Shown here one piece after another: positions 39,950 to 59,661 of a stretch of 64,000 nt of DNA. The DNA is taken from assembly GCA_027036015.1 (NCBI GenBank), contig JALVTH010000051.1, forward strand, positions 18,966 to 82,965. Reading direction: 5' to 3'. Each line of letters begins with the position of its first letter. Position 1 is the stretch's first letter. The DNA comes from Campylobacteraceae bacterium (GTDB lineage Bacteria; Campylobacterota; Campylobacteria; Campylobacterales; Sulfurovaceae). A program made the position numbers and the translations under genes. The notes beneath the pieces are model-generated. The model worked only from the letters and a program-made list of their open reading frames with translations. It made no database searches and was not told the origin of the DNA.

Positions 39950-40435
39950 ATGAAAGCTTTGCCACTCGGGATTCAAACTTTTAGCGAAATTAGAAGTGGC
40001 AATTACCTTTATATTGATAAAACAAAAGAGGCGCTTGATTTAATTACAAATTATGAATATGTTTTTCTCTCCCGCCCAAGACGCTTTGGAAAGAGCCTTT
40101 TTTTAGAGACTCTAAAAAATATCTTTGAAGGAAACGGCGAATATGAAGGATATTATGCAAGCGTTCTTTATGCCTATTTAGTTTCTTTAGGAATTCAAAT
40201 AATAGCTGAAGATGTAAGCAATATAGGAAGAGTTGATTTAACGCTTTTTATTGCCGATAAAATTTATATTATTGAATTTAAGGTGGGTTCTAATGAAGCT
40301 CTAAATCAAATAAAAGAGAAAAAATATTACAAAAAGTATCTTAATGAAAATAAAGAGATTTATTTAGTTGGAATTGCTTTTAATTCAAACACAAAAAATA
40401 TTAAAAGTTTTGAGTGGGAAAAGATTGCATCATGA
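39950..40435 (+). pseudogene. Internally deleted AAA-ATPase-like/PD-(D/E)XK protein (frame retained)
   Basis: N-terminus [25 protein letters not shown]...[22 protein letters not shown] joined directly to nuclease-like C-terminus [49 protein letters not shown]. Confidence 0.75.
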
Positions 40436-45080: not shown

Positions 45081-45100
45081 GGGGCAAAGCCCCCTTTTTT
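45081..45100. terminator. Bidirectional intrinsic terminator between convergent ilvD and lipoprotein gene
   Basis: AAAAAGGGGC-aaa-GCCCCCTTTTTT. Confidence 0.85.
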
Positions 45101-48100
45101 AATGAAAGATTTTTGGAAGGCGAATGAGGAATGGATTAAAATGAGGTTTTTTGCGAACGCTGTTAGCTTTTTTCAAATCACTACTTGGTTTAAACATTGA
45201 AGCTGTTTTTATATCTTTAGTAATATAAAAATCTCTATATGGCCATGGTTGATAGAGTTCATACCAATCATACTCTTTTTGTTTATTATTTTGCCAATAT
45301 GCAATAGCTTCATTTTTGTTTTTACCTTTAAGCTCTTGTGCCCAAAACCAAATATCAGAGTATTTAAAACTTGAAGCCATTTGGCTAATATGAGATACTA
45401 TAGTGCTTGGATAAAATTTTGTGACATTAATATCATTAAAACCTACCTCTTGTTGTGTAAGTGAATCAAAACTTATAATAGAAAAATTCCATAACTCTTC
45501 TTCATCACTATTTTCAATCTCAAAGCCCCAAGCACTACTATTTACTTTAGCAACTTCACTACCATTAATATCAAAGGCTTTTTTACTTATATTAAAATCT
45601 GCATCAATATCTAACATCGGATAGTTATTGGTATCATAATAGCTTTGTAAAGAGCCATCACCATAATAACCTTCTTGTTCATACCATTTTTCAAAATGAG
45701 CCCCACTATCATAGTTTGTTAATTTAAGAGTATATGTTAATTTATTATTGTCAATTACTTGCATTGTTAAATTCATTTCATTTTCATTATTTGCAATTTC
45801 TGGCTCATTTTGTGGCACATCAAAAACTACTTCATTAATATTCAAACCATTACGATAAGCATAAATTTGAGCTATTGGAGTTTTAGGAGTTAAATGAATC
45901 GTTACTGTTTTATTATTTTCACTTTGCATTGTATTATAATCTAAGCTTAAGCCATCAATTAAATCATTTGGCGTTAAATCTAAGAAAAGTTTAGATTTAT
46001 CTATATTATTATTCAAGCCTTTATATATATTAACCAAAAAGTCATAATGTCCAGCTCTATCTGGATAGAGTGCTTTTATTTGTGTGTGATAAGAAGTTTG
46101 GTGATCTAAATAACTACTATTTTCATAATTACTACCTGTAATAGTAATTTCTGTTACATTTTCATCTAAATTATTGATATTAAGACTAAATTGCAATGTT
46201 TGAGTTTGCATACAAGATTGTAATTCTTCTGGCAATCCTTCTTCTTCATAATATGGACCAACTTCTACATCATATTCTCCAACTGGCATATTTTTATATA
46301 AAGTAGTCTCTAATGCATATTCTTCTTCTTTCAACTCATTCCAATTGAGTGCTCCATCCCCATTACTATCCATAAGGGCAATTATATGAGTATAAAGTTC
46401 ATCTTGTGTAATAATAGAGTCGTTATTATCATCAAATTCACTACCTGTTACTTTATGATCACCTATCCACAATTGTGCTGCATCTACTACCCATGTTGCA
46501 AGTGTATTTGAAGATACAATGTTGCACCAGTTGGCACTTTGACAATGAGTATTGTTGCTTTCTTCTTCATTATAATGGCAATTATAGTGAGCTTCTGAGA
46601 TAATGTTATTTTTGGCTTTTTCCAAAATAAAAGATTTTGGCAAAATAGTTTGAGGACTAAATGTCAAAGAGAAAGAAACATTATGTGTATTTGATGCTAA
46701 ATTTACAACAGCATTGCCAAATTCATCAGTTATAACATGTTTAGTCAAAGCATATTGATCATTTGGATTATGAATACCAACAATTACTCCTGGCAATGTT
46801 GTATGAATTATTAAAACTGATTGTTGGTTTGGATTAAATACATTAATTGTTGCATTTGATTGGCTCATGGCTCCTTGGCTATCTCTTGCTGAACAACTTA
46901 ATGTATGATTACCTTCACTCAAATTACTTAAAATCACACTATAACTATTTCCATTTTGAGTAAGGTTCAAAACACTATTATCAAGCTTACACTCAACATT
47001 TACTCTATCGCCTTCCATATCAATGACAGTAAAAGTATAAGTTGCATTTTGCTCTGTTGAAATTGTCTTATCCTCAAGTGGTGGCACAATAGATGGCGGA
47101 GTATTTTCATTAATTATTGAAATATTAACATCATAAGGTTCACTCAAAGAATTATTATTATCTTGAGCTAAAAATTGTAATTTATACACTCCTGGCGCAT
47201 AAGTGCTTATATTAAAGTCTCTACCCCAAAAACTTCCTTTATTATATAAAGGATATACATGGTTTGTATTATTTAAATCGGTTATTGTTAAAGAAACGCC
47301 TTTTATTCCATCGCCATCTGGATCTTTGACATAAGCAAAAAGATGCATAATTTCACTTTGTCGCTTATTAATAATACCTCTTAATGCTCCAGCTCTTACA
47401 ATGATTGGCTTTTGATTTTTAGCTTCAAAAGTATATGATTTTTCACTCGTATTGTTAAATTCATCTTTTGCTTGGATAGTGATAGTATGAGAACCTTTAT
47501 TAAGGGTAAATTTATTTCCTAAATTACCATAACTTCCATCAATTATTGCTTTTATACTAAAATCATCACCATCTTTATCATAAACATTAACATACACTAT
47601 CTCATAGCTACCTGGTTTTACAAAAGAACCACTCTCTTTAATGTAATAAAGCGTGTTATTTCTTTCTAAAACAAGTGGACCCTCAATAATTGGAGCTTGA
47701 TTTTGGCGAATTTGGAAAATATAATTTTTTGTGATTGATGCTCCATTATTATCACTTACTTTTACACTCAATGTATGATTGCCCTCATTTAATCCATTGA
47801 TATCATATCTTCCACTTTCATAAAAATAACCATTTTCACTTACTTTTTGAATATTAGAAAGAGTAATTGCATTACCATCTAATTTAATCCAATTAAGCAC
47901 TATTGTATCATCACTACTATCGCTTGCATAAATATATGGCATTATATATTGCGTTTTTCCTTTGACCACATTAGCATTAGCAAGCCCTATCTCAAGTAAT
48001 GGCGGATGATTTTGTTCATGTAATACTACATCCACATAGCTTCCAGTATCTATTGTTTCATTTCCTTCTTTTTGGCCATTAACATTTACTTTCGTTGATT

Positions 48101-49655
48101 CTTGTCTAAAAGTTAATAAATAAGGCGTATTTTTATCTACACTAAAATAAACTTCTCCTTTGTCATTGGTTTTTTTGCTTTGGAAATACTCATAATAAGA
48201 ATTTTCTCCCTCATACTCTAAACTTACATATCGATGTTTTGCAAGTTGACCATTTTTTAAATAAATTGTTGCTTTTATATCAGCTGGATAAGGGTTTGGA
48301 ACTGTTACATTTAGCTCATAATCACATCCTTGTATTGAACTTTGATAAATATTGTTTGAATTAATAGCAATTTCTTCCCAAGAGGTGTAGTCTCCTTTAT
48401 AACTAAATTGCCAAGAGTTTAAATTATTATCAGGAATTTGCAAAGTAGCTTTACCTTCACTATCGCTATATGCATCATAATAAGCTCCATTGCGGTGTGC
48501 AGTTATAATCAAGTTATCGACTGGATTTCCTCTATTATCAATTGCATTAACACAAATATTTTTAGGACGATTAATCATGAAAGGAGAATCGCAGTTTAAA
48601 TAACCAGTTCCCCAATCATCAGGAACGCATACTTGAAAATAAAGATCATCTGGATAGTAATTTGCAATTCCTACAAATTGCCAAGTATTTTGTGCATTAT
48701 CATTACTCCAAATTGGCACTTGATAACCTGGATCGCTTGAATTATAATCTCCCCAACTCATAATGGTATTATTCTCTTCTAAAGTAACATGACGCGTCCA
48801 AATATGAGCACAATTACTCAAATCTACATTTGCATTAAATTTACTTTTTTTGAGATGAATAATTTTTCCATTTTGATCGCGCAAGACAAAATAATCAAAT
48901 GCAGCCGATTTTAAACCAACTTCACCCTGATTTGTCTTTCCTTTAAACTCACCTGGAAAGTTTTGTAAATCCTCTTTTTTAGTAGAATCAAACGCTTGCA
49001 TAGATGCTTCTATAAGCTTTACATTATCTGGCACTTCACTAAGAGGGAATGTATAAGTAGAGATAGCTCCATTTTGAAATGAAGCATTATTTTCATTTGC
49101 TAATGCGCTTAGAGTTGTTAATTTTGCAAAGCTTTCTAAAGTGCTACCACTTTTTTTAATACCAAAAATCACTACTGAACTTAATTTGGCACTTTGAGAA
49201 AGATTATCAAGTTTTAATACTTGTTTTAAAATTGGTTTATTTATTGCTGCTGAAGCATCGATAGTATAAGATTTACCATTTTCTAAGCTTAAAACCTTTT
49301 GATAGGGTGCATAATTTGGCACTTGCACTATTAATTTTGCTTTAAGAGGTTTATTTTGAAATACTGGAATATCTTCAAATCGAAAAGCTCCATTTTGCAA
49401 TGGCACTTGATAACTTTTATCATTAACACCATTATAAATGCCATCATTATCTACATCCAACATCAATTTTGCAAAGCCTTCATTAACTTTTTTCTTCAAA
49501 AAACCACTAATAAAAGAGTTTCCACTCAATTTATAAGAAGGAGTTTGTCCTCCTCCCGGACTACTTGGTGGATTAGATGCTTGATGATGGTGCCCTCCTC
49601 CACCACATCCAATTACAATAAACCAAATAAATAACAATGTCATAAATTTTTTCAT
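45099..49655 (-). CDS. Giant (1518 aa) surface lipoprotein with Ig-like/cadherin-like modules and EF-hand loops
   Basis: Lipobox IVIGCGGGGHHH; repeated Ig-like modules (NEGNHTLSVKVSDNNGASI, SEGNHTLSCSARDSQGAM); DSNGDGALNWNE EF-hand loop. Confidence 0.85.
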   Translation of the reverse strand: MKKFMTLLFIWFIVIGCGGGGHHHQASNPPSSPGGGQTPSYKLSGNSFISGFLKKKVNEGFAKLMLDVDNDGIYNGVNDKSYQVPLQNGAFRFEDIPVFQNKPLKAKLIVQVPNYAPYQKVLSLENGKSYTIDASAAINKPILKQVLKLDNLSQSAKLSSVVIFGIKKSGSTLESFAKLTTLSALANENNASFQNGAISTYTFPLSEVPDNVKLIEASMQAFDSTKKEDLQNFPGEFKGKTNQGEVGLKSAAFDYFVLRDQNGKIIHLKKSKFNANVDLSNCAHIWTRHVTLEENNTIMSWGDYNSSDPGYQVPIWSNDNAQNTWQFVGIANYYPDDLYFQVCVPDDWGTGYLNCDSPFMINRPKNICVNAIDNRGNPVDNLIITAHRNGAYYDAYSDSEGKATLQIPDNNLNSWQFSYKGDYTSWEEIAINSNNIYQSSIQGCDYELNVTVPNPYPADIKATIYLKNGQLAKHRYVSLEYEGENSYYEYFQSKKTNDKGEVYFSVDKNTPYLLTFRQESTKVNVNGQKEGNETIDTGSYVDVVLHEQNHPPLLEIGLANANVVKGKTQYIMPYIYASDSSDDTIVLNWIKLDGNAITLSNIQKVSENGYFYESGRYDINGLNEGNHTLSVKVSDNNGASITKNYIFQIRQNQAPIIEGPLVLERNNTLYYIKESGSFVKPGSYEIVYVNVYDKDGDDFSIKAIIDGSYGNLGNKFTLNKGSHTITIQAKDEFNNTSEKSYTFEAKNQKPIIVRAGALRGIINKRQSEIMHLFAYVKDPDGDGIKGVSLTITDLNNTNHVYPLYNKGSFWGRDFNISTYAPGVYKLQFLAQDNNNSLSEPYDVNISIINENTPPSIVPPLEDKTISTEQNATYTFTVIDMEGDRVNVECKLDNSVLNLTQNGNSYSVILSNLSEGNHTLSCSARDSQGAMSQSNATINVFNPNQQSVLIIHTTLPGVIVGIHNPNDQYALTKHVITDEFGNAVVNLASNTHNVSFSLTFSPQTILPKSFILEKAKNNIISEAHYNCHYNEEESNNTHCQSANWCNIVSSNTLATWVVDAAQLWIGDHKVTGSEFDDNNDSIITQDELYTHIIALMDSNGDGALNWNELKEEEYALETTLYKNMPVGEYDVEVGPYYEEEGLPEELQSCMQTQTLQFSLNINNLDENVTEITITGSNYENSSYLDHQTSYHTQIKALYPDRAGHYDFLVNIYKGLNNNIDKSKLFLDLTPNDLIDGLSLDYNTMQSENNKTVTIHLTPKTPIAQIYAYRNGLNINEVVFDVPQNEPEIANNENEMNLTMQVIDNNKLTYTLKLTNYDSGAHFEKWYEQEGYYGDGSLQSYYDTNNYPMLDIDADFNISKKAFDINGSEVAKVNSSAWGFEIENSDEEELWNFSIISFDSLTQQEVGFNDINVTKFYPSTIVSHISQMASSFKYSDIWFWAQELKGKNKNEAIAYWQNNKQKEYDWYELYQPWPYRDFYITKDIKTASMFKPSSDLKKANSVRKKPHFNPFLIRLPKIFH

Positions 49656-49806
49656 AATACTCCTCCTACAATTTTTTATTTGATAAGTATAACAGCTAAT
49701 AGTGATATGAGAGTGACAAAAAAAGGTTAAAAAAATGTATGATTAATTTATTAAGATTTTTTGATAAAAATTGTTTTAAATCAATTCTTTAAATAAAAAT
49801 TTTAGA

Positions 49807-49813
49807 TATAATA
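49807..49813 (+). promoter_or_regulatory. Probable -10 box of lipoprotein gene 49842
   Basis: agaTATAATaaaa ~35 bp upstream of the ATG, with GGGGAG RBS. Confidence 0.5.
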
Positions 49814-49841
49814 AAAAGTAAAATTAAAAAAAGGGGAGTTT

Positions 49842-52800
49842 ATGAGAAAATCAATTTTAACTTTAACTGCAGTATTTATACTGCTTGGATGCGGTGGAGG
49901 AGGCTCACATTCAAACACATCAACTCAAAACCCACCAGCATCAAATCCACCAACTCAAAATCCACCTCAAGAAAAGCATCTTAGTGGTGGAAAGGTTAGC
50001 GATGGATATATTGCAGGAGCTGATGTTTTAGTAGATATTAATGCTTCAAAAGGCTTTCCTGCAGATAGTCAAGATTATCTTACCAAAACAGATACACAAG
50101 GAAACTTTTCAATTCCAAATAATGTGCAGGTACCAAAAGGCACTTTTATTTATGCAAGGGGAGGAGTTGTTATAGCAACTGGCGAAGATTTTAACGGAAC
50201 ACTTAAAGGTGTTTTTGATGGAAGTAAAAAAGAAATTGCCCTAACACCAGTTACAACTATGGTTGCTTCTTTAGTTGAAAATGGACATGATGTAAAAAAA
50301 GCTAAAGAAAAGGTAGCAAAAGCACTCAACATTCCACCTTCTAAAGTAGATGCTGACCCAGTAAAAGATAAAGATGCTCTAAAAGCCGTGCAAAAAGTTG
50401 TAACAATTGCCAAAGTAATGAGTGCAAAAACTGATAAAAATGTAACTGATGTAGTAGAAACAATTGCACAAAAACTTGCTGCTGATGATAATTTGACAAA
50501 AGCTGTTCAAGAAAGTGCAAAAGAAGTAACAAATGATGATAATGAAGCTCAAGCAATTGCGCAAGCTGCACTTACTACTGCACAAAAAGTAAAAGAGGTT
50601 ATTGAACATTATACGCAAGAAGAAAATACTTCAAATACAGCAATTGAAGCTGTTGTTCAAGAACATATCGTAAAAAGAGCCGAGGAAGTTATTCAAAAAG
50701 AAAATAATGTATCAGAAGTTGCAAATGCTGTAGAAGAAGCAGTACAAACTGTTACTAATAATGATTTTAAAGATGTAACAAAAGTTGCAAGTTGTTTAAG
50801 TTTTGAAAAAATTAAAGGGCAAAATCAAAATGAAAATGAAGTAACTACAAATCTTAACGTAAATGGAGCACAAACTTGCATTGAAAATAATGTTTCAATT
50901 GCTTGGATTAATGCTGGAGAAAATGTTGATATTAACGGCTCTATTATCCGCCCAAATTATGATGATACTTTGACTTATATTGAAGCAAATATTTCAAAAA
51001 ATGATAAATTCTTACTCAAACCAATCTACTTTACTATTAAAGCAAAAGGAAAAAGACCAATTGCTAAGCCAGATAATGTACAAGTAAATGAAGATAGCAA
51101 CATTACAATTGATGTATTAAATAATGATGAAGATGATAATAAAAGTGAACTAAATGTTAGCATTGCTGTAAATCCTCAACATGGAAATGCAGTAGTTGAT
51201 GGAAATAAAATCAAATATAGCCCAAATCCTAATTTTACTGGAGAAGATTTATTTGTTTATAAATTAAAAGATCCTTATGGAGCTGAGTCAAATGCAACTG
51301 TAACAATTGAAGTGCTTCCAGTAAACGATGCACCACATTTAGTCTTGCCTCAAGATGAATTTAATTTGTTAGAAGATTTCAATGCAACTGCAATTGAACT
51401 GAATGCAACTGATGCTGATATTAATGATACATTAACCTTTAATGTAAGTGGTGGTGATGGTCTTATTAATGCACATGTTCAAGGTAATGTCTTACATTTA
51501 GCACCTGTTGCTAATGCTAATGGTGATACGAACTTAACTATTACAGTTACTGACAGTCATGGTGCAAGTGATTCTAAAACTGTAACTCTTCATATTTTGC
51601 CTGTTAATGATGCGCCAGTGTTAGATGATATTGCTTTACCAGAAATTAATGAAGATAGTAATACTACACTAATTAATTTGAGTGCAACAGATGTTGATGC
51701 TAATGATTCATTAACTTTTAGTGCTCACTCTCTCAATGAAGCAATTGCCAAAGTTAATGTAATTAATAATAAGCTTCAAATTATTCCTATGCCAAATGCA
51801 TTTGGAGATGTTAATATTACTATTAGTGTAACTGATAGCCAAGGTGCAAGTGATTCTAAAACCTTTACATTACATATTAATCCAGTAAACGATGCACCAC
51901 ATTTAGTGTTGCCTCAAGATGAATTTAATTTGTTAGAAGATTTCAATGCAACTGCAATTGAACTGAATGCAACTGATGCTGATATTAATGATACATTAAC
52001 CTTTAATGTAAGTGGTGGTGATGGTCTTATTAATGCACATGTTCAAGGTAATGTCTTACATTTAGCACCTGTTGCTAATGCTAATGGTGATACTAACTTA
52101 ACTATTACAGTTACTGACAGTCATGGTGCAAGTGATTCTAAAACTGTAACTCTTCATATTTTGCCTGTTAATGATGCGCCAATTGCAAGAGATGATAATT
52201 TTAGTGTACAGTTGCCTCAAAGTGAGCAAGTTAGTCCATTACTTGATGTCTTAAAAAATGACAGCGATATTGATAATGACAAATTATCAATTATTAACGT
52301 AGATAACCCTTATGCTCAAATTGCTCCAATGCATGAAGCAATTATATTTAATCCGCCAAGAAACTTTGAAGGTGATAGTATTTCTTATACATTTCACTAT
52401 ACAATTAGTGATGGCAACACTACAACAATAGCTACTGTTCATGTAACAGTACATCGACAAATAACCACTCTTATGCAAGCAATTAATAAAGCAAAAGGCT
52501 TTGATAAAAATAATGAAAGTGTTGATACGCTTTTGAGTGATTTAAATGCTATTTTATCGCAAGCTGATATTAATGAAACAGATGCACAAATTGCTCTTGC
52601 TCTTGTTCATTTAGCTCAAACATTAAATGATGATTTAGGTAATTTACTCTTTGTTGGTCAAGAAGATGCTTCATTTGATAAACTCCTTCATAAAGATGGA
52701 GCTAAAATTCTATTAAAGGCTATTGATAACTTTGGAGATGCAAGTGAAGAGACATTAACAAATCTTAGCAACAATTTAATAACTGTTGCTAAAAAAATTG

Positions 52801-54926
52801 ATGTACTTTTAACACAAAATCCAAACTATCAATTTAGTTATAAAGGTGTACACTTTAATGCAAATGATTTAAAAGCATTGAGTGCTCTTTGCAAAGCCAA
52901 AGCTGCAACAATTGATTATATAAGAGCTTATAATATTATTGATGGTAATTTCATTGCTACAAAAACTAAAACAATTAATGGACAAGATATTGAATATCAA
53001 GAAATAAAAATTAATCCTGTTGCCGCATTAAATGACAATTCTACCCTTTCATTAAAAGATGATGCGCAAAGCAAGTTTGATAGTTCCAAAGCTAAGTTAC
53101 AAGCTGCTATTAATCAAATAGCTACTTTAAACATTGCTCAAACAAGTTTTGATGCAAAAATTAAAGATAAATTACAAAACTTTAAAACTAAACTCCTTGA
53201 TATCAATAACAGTTTAAATGGCATAGGCACTTACATGGTTCATAGCGAAAAAAGAGATGTTTATTTAAAAGTTAATGCTCTATTTAATGCAAACTCTGCT
53301 TTGACACTTGCTAATACATTTGGACACAACTTTGCTTATGAACCTCAAGAAGCTGAATTTAATAGAACTCTTTCAATTTATCATCATAAACCAATAGGTA
53401 TTATTAGTGATGGCAATAACACTTATATGACCAAACTTAAAGTAAAAATTTCAAGCTTACCAGAAATTAATGGTTTTGCAAATGTAATTAGCAAAGTTGT
53501 AATACATGATGAAAATGGTTCAAAAGAGGTTAATGGTTCTGATTTAAGAAAAGCTATTTTTGGCGGTTTTAGTTTAGAAGGACCACATAATTTAATGCAT
53601 TTTAACAGTGTGGATGATGTAAATATTACTTTTGTTATTCAAGCTGATCTAATTAATACAGCCCCTTATAGTTGTAATATACAAAATGCTTGGTTAGAAC
53701 CTTTCGCAGGACAAAACCAACAACAATTACCAATAGATGCATTTAATATTCAAGTTAATAATAATCAATGTATCGTTACTATAAATTCAAACTTCATTCC
53801 ATTCCAAGCAGGACATATTGGTTTTGTAATAGAAGCAAGAGATAATTTCGGACATAGCGATCGAGACGGAGTTTACTTTGGTTATGGAAATCCAGATAAT
53901 GGAGGTGAAGGAGGCAATGAAGGAGGTAACCAAAATGAAGAAGATTTAAATAACACTCACTTAACTCAAGAAGAATATAATAACTTTATGCCTTCTTCAC
54001 TTTTACCAAATGGAGAATATTATGAGATAAATATGGATATAAATTGTGCTCATATAGAACATATCCAAATCAATGACAACAATATAACACTTGAGGGTGA
54101 ATTTAATGCTACATTAATAAAAGAAATTAATAATGAAACAAAAGAAATTATTGCAAAAGATCAAAATGGCAATATAATTGGGAAAATAAAATATGTAAAA
54201 GAATTAAATGCATCCCAATTAAATCAACTCTTAAATACTACTATTTTTAATAACAATGATAAAGGCTATTTAGTTTACCAAGAAGATGATGATGAAAATC
54301 CTATTCAATATGAAAAATCAATTTGGTTTAACAGCTTTGCAAAAGACAAAATAGTTGCTCACAATACTATTTGCCAAGATCAAGGTAATGATAATACAAA
54401 TGAAAGTGAAGACAACAATAATGAACAAAATATAACAATCAACTTTTCTCAACAAATTGATGAACAAAAATACAATAATACAAATGCTATAATTCCTCCT
54501 ATGCAAGACTTCCCTCTTTATAGCATTAAATATCAAAGCAATCAATTACCACACACAAAAATGTCAAAATATAGTTTGATTGATGAAAATACAATCAATC
54601 GAAAAATATATGAAGATGGTAATTTAACAGAAGAAAACAATGTTACAATTTCTATTAATAATAATGAAATTGCGGGTGCCGAAAATAATCAAAGTGTTCC
54701 ATTTGTTTACATTAAATTTATGAGTGAATTAAATGCAGATGCCCTTAATGAAGAAATAGGACAAGAAATCTTCCAAAACAGCGACAATGGTTATGTAGTT
54801 TACATTAAATATATAAATAAAAAAGATAACTCCATCAACTACAAATCATATATTTGGTTAAATGAAAGTGCAAAAAATAGTTTTGAAAACTTTATCCAAA
54901 ACTTCCAAAACAATCAGCAACCTTAG
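49842..54926 (+). CDS. Giant (1694 aa) surface lipoprotein with tandem VNDAP/cadherin-like repeats
   Basis: Lipobox ILLGCGGGGSHS; repeated ...LTFNVSGGDGLI...TVTDSHGASDSKTVTLHILPVNDAP modules. Confidence 0.88.
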   Translation: MRKSILTLTAVFILLGCGGGGSHSNTSTQNPPASNPPTQNPPQEKHLSGGKVSDGYIAGADVLVDINASKGFPADSQDYLTKTDTQGNFSIPNNVQVPKGTFIYARGGVVIATGEDFNGTLKGVFDGSKKEIALTPVTTMVASLVENGHDVKKAKEKVAKALNIPPSKVDADPVKDKDALKAVQKVVTIAKVMSAKTDKNVTDVVETIAQKLAADDNLTKAVQESAKEVTNDDNEAQAIAQAALTTAQKVKEVIEHYTQEENTSNTAIEAVVQEHIVKRAEEVIQKENNVSEVANAVEEAVQTVTNNDFKDVTKVASCLSFEKIKGQNQNENEVTTNLNVNGAQTCIENNVSIAWINAGENVDINGSIIRPNYDDTLTYIEANISKNDKFLLKPIYFTIKAKGKRPIAKPDNVQVNEDSNITIDVLNNDEDDNKSELNVSIAVNPQHGNAVVDGNKIKYSPNPNFTGEDLFVYKLKDPYGAESNATVTIEVLPVNDAPHLVLPQDEFNLLEDFNATAIELNATDADINDTLTFNVSGGDGLINAHVQGNVLHLAPVANANGDTNLTITVTDSHGASDSKTVTLHILPVNDAPVLDDIALPEINEDSNTTLINLSATDVDANDSLTFSAHSLNEAIAKVNVINNKLQIIPMPNAFGDVNITISVTDSQGASDSKTFTLHINPVNDAPHLVLPQDEFNLLEDFNATAIELNATDADINDTLTFNVSGGDGLINAHVQGNVLHLAPVANANGDTNLTITVTDSHGASDSKTVTLHILPVNDAPIARDDNFSVQLPQSEQVSPLLDVLKNDSDIDNDKLSIINVDNPYAQIAPMHEAIIFNPPRNFEGDSISYTFHYTISDGNTTTIATVHVTVHRQITTLMQAINKAKGFDKNNESVDTLLSDLNAILSQADINETDAQIALALVHLAQTLNDDLGNLLFVGQEDASFDKLLHKDGAKILLKAIDNFGDASEETLTNLSNNLITVAKKIDVLLTQNPNYQFSYKGVHFNANDLKALSALCKAKAATIDYIRAYNIIDGNFIATKTKTINGQDIEYQEIKINPVAALNDNSTLSLKDDAQSKFDSSKAKLQAAINQIATLNIAQTSFDAKIKDKLQNFKTKLLDINNSLNGIGTYMVHSEKRDVYLKVNALFNANSALTLANTFGHNFAYEPQEAEFNRTLSIYHHKPIGIISDGNNTYMTKLKVKISSLPEINGFANVISKVVIHDENGSKEVNGSDLRKAIFGGFSLEGPHNLMHFNSVDDVNITFVIQADLINTAPYSCNIQNAWLEPFAGQNQQQLPIDAFNIQVNNNQCIVTINSNFIPFQAGHIGFVIEARDNFGHSDRDGVYFGYGNPDNGGEGGNEGGNQNEEDLNNTHLTQEEYNNFMPSSLLPNGEYYEINMDINCAHIEHIQINDNNITLEGEFNATLIKEINNETKEIIAKDQNGNIIGKIKYVKELNASQLNQLLNTTIFNNNDKGYLVYQEDDDENPIQYEKSIWFNSFAKDKIVAHNTICQDQGNDNTNESEDNNNEQNITINFSQQIDEQKYNNTNAIIPPMQDFPLYSIKYQSNQLPHTKMSKYSLIDENTINRKIYEDGNLTEENNVTISINNNEIAGAENNQSVPFVYIKFMSELNADALNEEIGQEIFQNSDNGYVVYIKYINKKDNSINYKSYIWLNESAKNSFENFIQNFQNNQQP
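51318..51617 (+). repeat. 300-bp direct repeat copy 1 (one ~100-aa module)
   Basis: Aligned by eye with 51882-52181: only two mismatches seen, both synonymous. Confidence 0.9.
51882..52181 (+). repeat. 300-bp direct repeat copy 2, offset 564 bp from copy 1
   Basis: See copy 1. Confidence 0.9.
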
Positions 54927-58918: not shown

Positions 58919-59260
58919 ATGCAAAAGCAAGTTGATATAGAAAAGTTAAAAAAAGAAATTATCAAGCGCCTTAAACCTCTTAATCCTCAAAAAATAATTC
59001 TCTTTGGCTCTTATGCTTATGGCAAGCCAAATGAAAATAGCGATATCGATTTATATATTGTAACAAATGATGATTTTATCCCTCAAAGCTGGAGGGAAAA
59101 AGCAAATATCTATTTAAAGTATTCTAAAGAATTAAGAGATTTGCAAAAAATAATCCCAATTGATTTAATTGTACATACTAAAAAAATGCATGAGAAATTT
59201 GTACAAATTAATAGCAGTTTTTATAAGCATACAATTTTGCGAGGGATAAAATTATGGTAA
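58919..59260 (+). CDS. Minimal nucleotidyltransferase (MNT/MntA-like)
   Basis: ILFGSYAYGKPNENSDIDLYIV: GS-X10-D-X-D signature; 113 aa, overlaps the HEPN gene. Confidence 0.85.
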   Translation: MQKQVDIEKLKKEIIKRLKPLNPQKIILFGSYAYGKPNENSDIDLYIVTNDDFIPQSWREKANIYLKYSKELRDLQKIIPIDLIVHTKKMHEKFVQINSSFYKHTILRGIKLW

Positions 59261-59661
59261 AAATTTGGAAAGAGTGGCTTAAAGCTGCTAAAGATGATTT
59301 AATTTTATTAGAAGAGATCAAAAATAATCCCTCTCTTACTCATCTAAGTGCTTTTCATTCTCAGCAAGCAATTGAAAAGAGTTTAAAAGCACTTTTAGAA
59401 TATAATAATCAAGAAGTACCAAAAATTCACAAAATTCAAACATTAGTTGATAAAACAAATTTAGACTTTTCTAAATATGATGAATTAATTCAGCTTTTAG
59501 ATGCCCTTTATATTGAAGCACGATATCCAGGAGAATTTGGTCTTTTACCTTCTGGCAAACCAAGCCTAAAAGAGGCTTATGAGTTTTTTAACTTTGCAAA
59601 AGAGGTTTTTGCAAAAGTTTGCTTTCTTTTAGATATTAAAGAAAATGAAATTATGCAATAA
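59254..59661 (+). CDS. HEPN-domain protein partner of the MNT
   Basis: WLKAAKDDLILLEEI...HLSAFHSQQAIEKSLKALLEYNNQEVPKIHKIQTL...IEARYPGE. Confidence 0.85.
   Translation: MVKIWKEWLKAAKDDLILLEEIKNNPSLTHLSAFHSQQAIEKSLKALLEYNNQEVPKIHKIQTLVDKTNLDFSKYDELIQLLDALYIEARYPGEFGLLPSGKPSLKEAYEFFNFAKEVFAKVCFLLDIKENEIMQ

Follow-up and report, generated by a model that had tools for sequence, protein, structure and literature searches.

A giant sequon-rich lipoprotein with cadherin-like repeats as a probable extreme substrate of PglB-type N-glycosylation

Results

The window (the whole 64,000-nucleotide stretch of DNA that was analysed) holds two giant lipoprotein genes, P0001 and P0002, lying head-to-head about a common intergenic region. 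The P0001 open reading frame is real, with an ATG start 3' of a GGGGAG-type ribosome site. The features of the locus are:

45099..49655, minus strand: P0002, second giant lipoprotein, head-to-head with P0001 (1518 aa)
49656..49841, no strand: divergent intergenic region of 186 bp, common to the P0001 and P0002 genes
49842..54926, plus strand: P0001, giant lipoprotein gene (1694 aa, 41 acidic N-glycosylation sequons)
49842..49892, plus strand: type II (lipoprotein) signal peptide, lipobox ILLG/C17 (found by eye), then a Gly-rich stretch
49977..51026, plus strand: P0001 N-terminal region, aa 46-395 (9 sequons)
51027..52457, plus strand: five tandem-95/Big_9 cadherin-like repeats, aa 396-872 (17 sequons)
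51333..51617, plus strand: 285-bp repeat, first copy, one cadherin-like module with four sequons
51897..52181, plus strand: 285-bp repeat, second copy, 283 of 285 bases identical to the first
52458..53921, plus strand: P0001 middle domain, aa 873-1360 (7 sequons; 39-40% identity to the orthologue in genome G105)
53922..54923, plus strand: P0001 C-terminal region, aa 1361-1694 (8 sequons; two similar halves by eye; missing in the G105 orthologue)

Two further features of the window were noted by eye: a short open reading frame (39950-40435) in which an AAA-ATPase-like start is joined to a PD-(D/E)XK-type end, as if internally deleted, and a probable MNT nucleotidyltransferase/HEPN toxin-antitoxin pair (58919-59661) sitting between galU-like and UDP-glucose dehydrogenase-like genes.

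The repeats place P0001 in a known family, with scores of 183.6 bits for NF012211 (tandem-95; cut-off 90) and 172.1 bits over five stretches for PF17963 (Big_9; cut-off 23.6). AlphaFold models residues 396-872 as an all-beta repeat rod (mean pLDDT 73, with the central repeats at 80-90), and Foldseek matches this model to cadherin ectodomains and to an Aeromonas RTX-adhesin repeat (6xi1). Other genomes of the family encode lipoproteins homologous to the N-terminal part over residues 2-247. The middle domain was without a match to a known family and without a confident fold (pLDDT 48), so that its model was set aside, and a sequence search of the PDB gave no match. Within the repeat model the sequon asparagines are not enriched in loops (9 of 17, vs 36 of 56 for all Asn), and hence no claim of exposure is drawn from it. 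Two other protein classes were considered and dropped. A type I-secreted RTX giant adhesin is at odds with the lipoprotein signal peptide and the lack of an RTX family match. An S-layer-like protein, as an earlier sequence-only reading of this DNA had it, is likewise not borne out: neither Pfam nor NCBIfam gives an SLH or other S-layer match, Pfam instead shows the Big_9/cadherin-like repeats, and the anchor is that of a lipoprotein.

P0001 contains 41 D/E-X-N-X-S/T sites without Pro at X by regular-expression count, with D at 26 and E at 15 of the -2 positions and T at 26 and S at 15 of the +2 positions. That reading had put the number at roughly 37 by eye, which is also the count when the second copy of the 285-bp repeat is left out, and all 22 of the pentapeptides it listed are present. 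Its expectation of only a few sites by chance was confirmed by shuffling over the whole protein (n=5000; mean 3.3, maximum 11), shuffling inside windows of 20-80 residues (mean 3.2-3.7, maximum 12), and first-order Markov sequences (mean 3.4, maximum 13); together these rule out an artefact of composition, dipeptides or local composition. The reversed motif [ST]xNx[DE] occurs once, and [KR]xNx[ST] twice (1.9 expected). The relaxed N-X-S/T motif, a comparison that the sequence-only reading had suggested, is found 57 times (25.5 expected), with D/E at -2 in 41 of the 57. All four regions of the protein are enriched, from N- to C-terminus with 9, 17, 7 and 8 sequons observed against 0.56, 1.03, 0.67 and 0.89 expected. 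Judging from its near-identity, the second 285-bp copy is a recent duplication or conversion event that copied four sequons. P0002 has 22 acidic sequons (2.5 expected) and no reversed motif, making it a second candidate hyper-glycosylated protein.

Two more proteins of the same genome drew our attention. One is a 983-aa lipoprotein on contig C46 (L073:4367-7318) with 32 acidic sequons (1.8 expected), which is sequon-denser than P0001 and has an Asn/Lys/Glu-rich, sequon-packed linker between two similar modules. The other is a 2214-aa protein with an export signal on contig C44 (L071:1-6643), with 24 sequons (4.8 expected).

The pattern extends to the exported proteome, as seen in a 1.13 Mb sample of the genome in which open reading frames were called mechanically and exported proteins were separated from cytosolic ones by a simple signal-peptide rule, a crude heuristic. 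P0001 counts as exported both by this rule and by inspection of its sequence (signal peptide with lipobox ILLGC). Exported proteins (n=199) hold 232 sequons where 56.7 are expected, a 4.1-fold excess (bootstrap CI 2.7-5.5) that is still 2.6-fold without the five sequon-richest proteins; cytosolic proteins (n=643) hold 131 where 125.5 are expected (1.0-fold). The reversed motif stands at 0.85-fold in exported proteins. In these same proteins, D and E are enriched over background at position -2 of N-x-S/T (3.5-fold and 2.7-fold), T and S follow [DE]xN at 4.3-fold and 2.3-fold, and Pro is found at +1 in 1 of 233 cases. This profile, with D/E at -2, T over S at +2 and Pro scarce at +1, matches the published PglB sequon, D/E-X-N-X-S/T (PMC9816155; PMC6025236). 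Only three relatives had enough sequence for such a comparison (G003, G045 and G086 were underpowered at 100 kb each): exported-protein sequons are at 3.8-fold in G025, a member of the same family with STT3, and at 1.0-fold (G008) and 0.44-fold (G070) in members of the order without it. From the exported-protein excess, together with the 41 sequons of P0001 where about 3 are expected, we predict that P0001 is very probably heavily sugar-coated.

The repeat fold is not in itself a source of sequons. As controls we used tandem-95 proteins encoded on plasmids of nine bacteria (Pseudomonas, Acaryochloris, Variovorax, Gloeothece, Priestia, Mesorhizobium, Pseudoalteromonas, Ponticoccus and Stutzerimonas), leaving out the best-scoring plasmid matches, which came from Vibrio parahaemolyticus (72 kb, from shrimp; a possible virulence plasmid). 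The control segments show no excess, with 8 sequons where 14.1 are expected, and this rules the fold out as an intrinsic source. Among control residues aligned to the 17 repeat sequons of P0001, only 9 of 151 cells have Asn and 3 complete a sequon, although D/E is often present at -2 and S/T at +2 (e.g. DTPLT, DTPVS, DGNGS). With the acidic and Ser/Thr frame common and Asn rare, the repeats appear to have supplied the frame, to which Asn was added. As a separate observation, tandem-95 proteins of two PglB-bearing genomes, L020 (G055) and L016 (G151), have 0 sequons where about 2 are expected, which are weak numbers; the start of L020 resembles that of an adhesin exported by type I secretion, a route that would avoid PglB, making it a possible natural control.

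The orthologue of P0001 in the congener G105, whose genome has PglB, is 956 aa long and 46% identical across the alignment, with one tandem-95 repeat (vs five in P0001) and without the C-terminal part. It has 17 sequons (2.0 expected), and 10 of 20 aligned sequons are kept; the rate at which D/E, N and S/T are conserved at non-sequon positions predicts 13.9% (P=1.3e-4). This supports, for one protein pair, the view that the sequons are maintained by selection, as the sequence-only reading had supposed in speaking of modules selected to retain them.

That reading had also assigned the acidic sequon to the PglB of Campylobacterota, as is established in Campylobacter and Helicobacter (PMC6025236), and STT3 is indeed encoded by 84 of the family's 95 near-complete genomes (by the same HMM, 80 of 100 genomes in the order and 8 of 12 in the genus). 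It had named the lack of pglB in the genome as grounds for giving the idea up, and on its face that lack is what five types of search returned. In the 79-contig assembly, whose estimated completeness is 100%, pglB/STT3 was not detected with the PF02516 (STT3) HMM, the PglB equivalog HMM, a three-PglB profile at E<=10 or the WWDYG DNA pattern, nor did tblastn of ten PglBs match in two thirds of the genome. Absence of STT3 goes with fragmentation in the family (Fisher P=0.006; rank test P=2e-4): all 37 genomes of at most 70 contigs have it, and all 11 negatives have at least 79 contigs. The ten other near-complete, fragmented genomes without STT3 are G112, G120, G123, G136, G159, G185, G192, G206, G214 and G219.

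Contig C43 (7.1 kb) carries genes for a WcaI-type glycosyltransferase, a sugar aminotransferase, a sugar phosphotransferase and a UDP-sugar 4,6-dehydratase. Its glycan proteins are 52-85% identical to proteins of the pglB loci of congeners, the contig is without pglB, and it breaks off at either end within a glycan gene, polymerase-like at one end and wzz-like at the other. In G104, G106 and G108, pglB lies between the C43-type glycosyltransferase and aminotransferase genes, which abut in C43; in G101 and G105 it lies beside an MsbA-like gene, and in our genome another gene occupies that slot. With one slot empty and the other occupied, pglB would have to lie elsewhere; its position varies among congeners, so that an empty slot says little. 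The ABC transporter beside the second slot (contig C49) was considered as PglK and dropped (MsbA 481 bits vs 242). The right end of the window is itself a contig end, within a GDP-mannose dehydratase gene. CRISPR-like repeated sequences were noticed in L035, L042 and L069 (contigs C8, C15 and C42), at the contig ends in C15 and C42, and assembly breaks seem to be located at repeats.

Since all STT3-negative genomes of the family are fragmented drafts, we infer that an assembly gap is the likeliest reason for the absence of pglB, with a recent loss possible and a different enzyme unlikely. The absence is thus unusual but probably technical.

Discussion

Here, we propose that P0001, a lipoprotein of cadherin-like repeats, is probably a substrate, if an extreme one, of ordinary PglB N-glycosylation, and that the pglB gene of its genome falls into an assembly gap. 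Sec export and lipidation at Cys17 would turn P0001 into a rod of cadherin-like repeats held by a lipid anchor. Many of the 41 sequons may then be N-glycosylated by a PglB/STT3-type oligosaccharyltransferase, an enzyme found almost throughout the family, which would transfer a lipid-linked oligosaccharide to the Asn of D/E-X-N-X-S/T in the periplasm as the chain emerges from Sec, either before or after the repeats fold. The product would be a sugar-coated stalk of the cell envelope. The sequons themselves may have arisen mainly through placement of Asn in repeat positions already flanked by the acidic (-2) and Ser/Thr (+2) residues of a sequon, to be kept afterwards by selection, and the pglB gene would be missing from the assembly through a gap in a glycan locus.

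In this proposal we infer that the organism has pglB, that the sites are occupied, that the stalk lies on the outer surface and that its function is protective or adhesive. As to its role, protease protection, stiffening or adhesion are guesses, and that P0001 is an adhesin is a plausible guess from its fold. Hyper-glycosylation, the core of the sequence-only reading, draws support from the sequon excess, the PglB-shaped profile of exported proteins, the PglB-bearing relatives and conservation in the orthologue; the undetected pglB counts against it, and the S-layer part is without support.

Could the enzyme be gone? A recent loss of PglB from the lineage would leave the sequons as relics that are no longer glycosylated, and would account for a gene missing from a genome scored as complete and for the way in which the two genes that enclose pglB in three congeners meet exactly in C43. 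We consider such a loss unlikely: every well-assembled member of the family has STT3 and every negative is a draft, the site profile of the exported proteins is sharp and includes the recent 285-bp duplication, and the variable position of pglB gives the empty slot little weight. An N-oligosaccharyltransferase that is unrelated to PglB, or has diverged far from it, yet recognises this acidic sequon would reconcile the strong PglB-like profile with an undetected PglB, but there is no positive evidence for another enzyme and the congeners examined use a recognisable PglB with WWDYG, which makes this idea highly improbable.

Other readings concern the sites and not the enzyme. The sequons could be exposed to PglB with a minority occupied, selection acting on a few and the rest being tolerated; most known campylobacter glycoproteins do have one site, with two or more in 9 of 33 from C. 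hepaticus (PMC9816155), and occupancy can be hierarchical (PMC6025236). Set against the excess in all four regions of P0001 and the conservation of half of the aligned positions, this is very unlikely. The idea that calcium-binding, Asn/Asp-rich cadherin-like repeats give rise to the motif incidentally fits the repeat consensus, where D/E and S/T already stand four apart at many sequon sites, and the share of the P0001 sequons held by the repeats (17 of 41). It is hardly credible in light of the control repeats of nine other bacteria, the enrichment of non-repeat regions and of unrelated exported proteins, and the near absence of the reversed motif from P0001. Glycosylation by an ordinary PglB hidden in an assembly gap thus remains our preferred explanation.

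If glycosylated, the 41-, 22- and 32-site lipoproteins of this genome would be unusually dense compared to the bacterial N-glycoproteins described in the literature examined, with their one to few sites, and would serve as natural test objects for the roles of dense N-glycans in the bacterial envelope. The genome-wide excess in exported proteins suggests selection on bacterial sequons, and an excess confined to exported proteins makes it simple to test, from sequence, whether PglB glycosylation is or recently was active, even where a draft lacks pglB. In the literature searched, we came across no study of whether sequons are over-represented in the exported proteomes of bacteria, though such work may still exist.

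How does P0001 compare to known systems? Archaeal S-layer proteins are large, N-glycosylated at multiple sites and located at the surface. If our prediction holds, P0001 resembles them in being large and multi-site, and differs in its bacterial acidic sequon, its lipoprotein anchor and its lack of an S-layer family match. With tandem-95/Big_9 proteins (NF012211, PF17963) it has in common its five repeats and the Foldseek matches to cadherins and 6xi1. Unlike a type I-secreted RTX adhesin, it is a lipid-anchored Sec substrate, and its repeats carry acidic sequons that the tandem-95 repeats of other bacteria are without.

The remaining comparison is with the PglB-dependent N-glycoproteins of Campylobacter and Helicobacter (CmeABC, JlpA, HgpA, AMIN and the OmpA family), which have the same sequon and are likewise exported or membrane-anchored. 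Glycosylation at the PglB sequon is established in both genera; C. jejuni has over 60 extracytoplasmic glycoproteins, and vent organisms, among them Nitratiruptor and Sulfurovum, also have described PglBs (PMC6025236). PglB is near-universal in the family to which the P0001 genome belongs; pglB was not found in its own assembly. One to few sites are described for the known proteins in the literature examined, compared to the 41 of P0001 and 22 of P0002, both predicted from sequence. P0001 would thus be an extreme case of a known process, PglB-type N-glycosylation.
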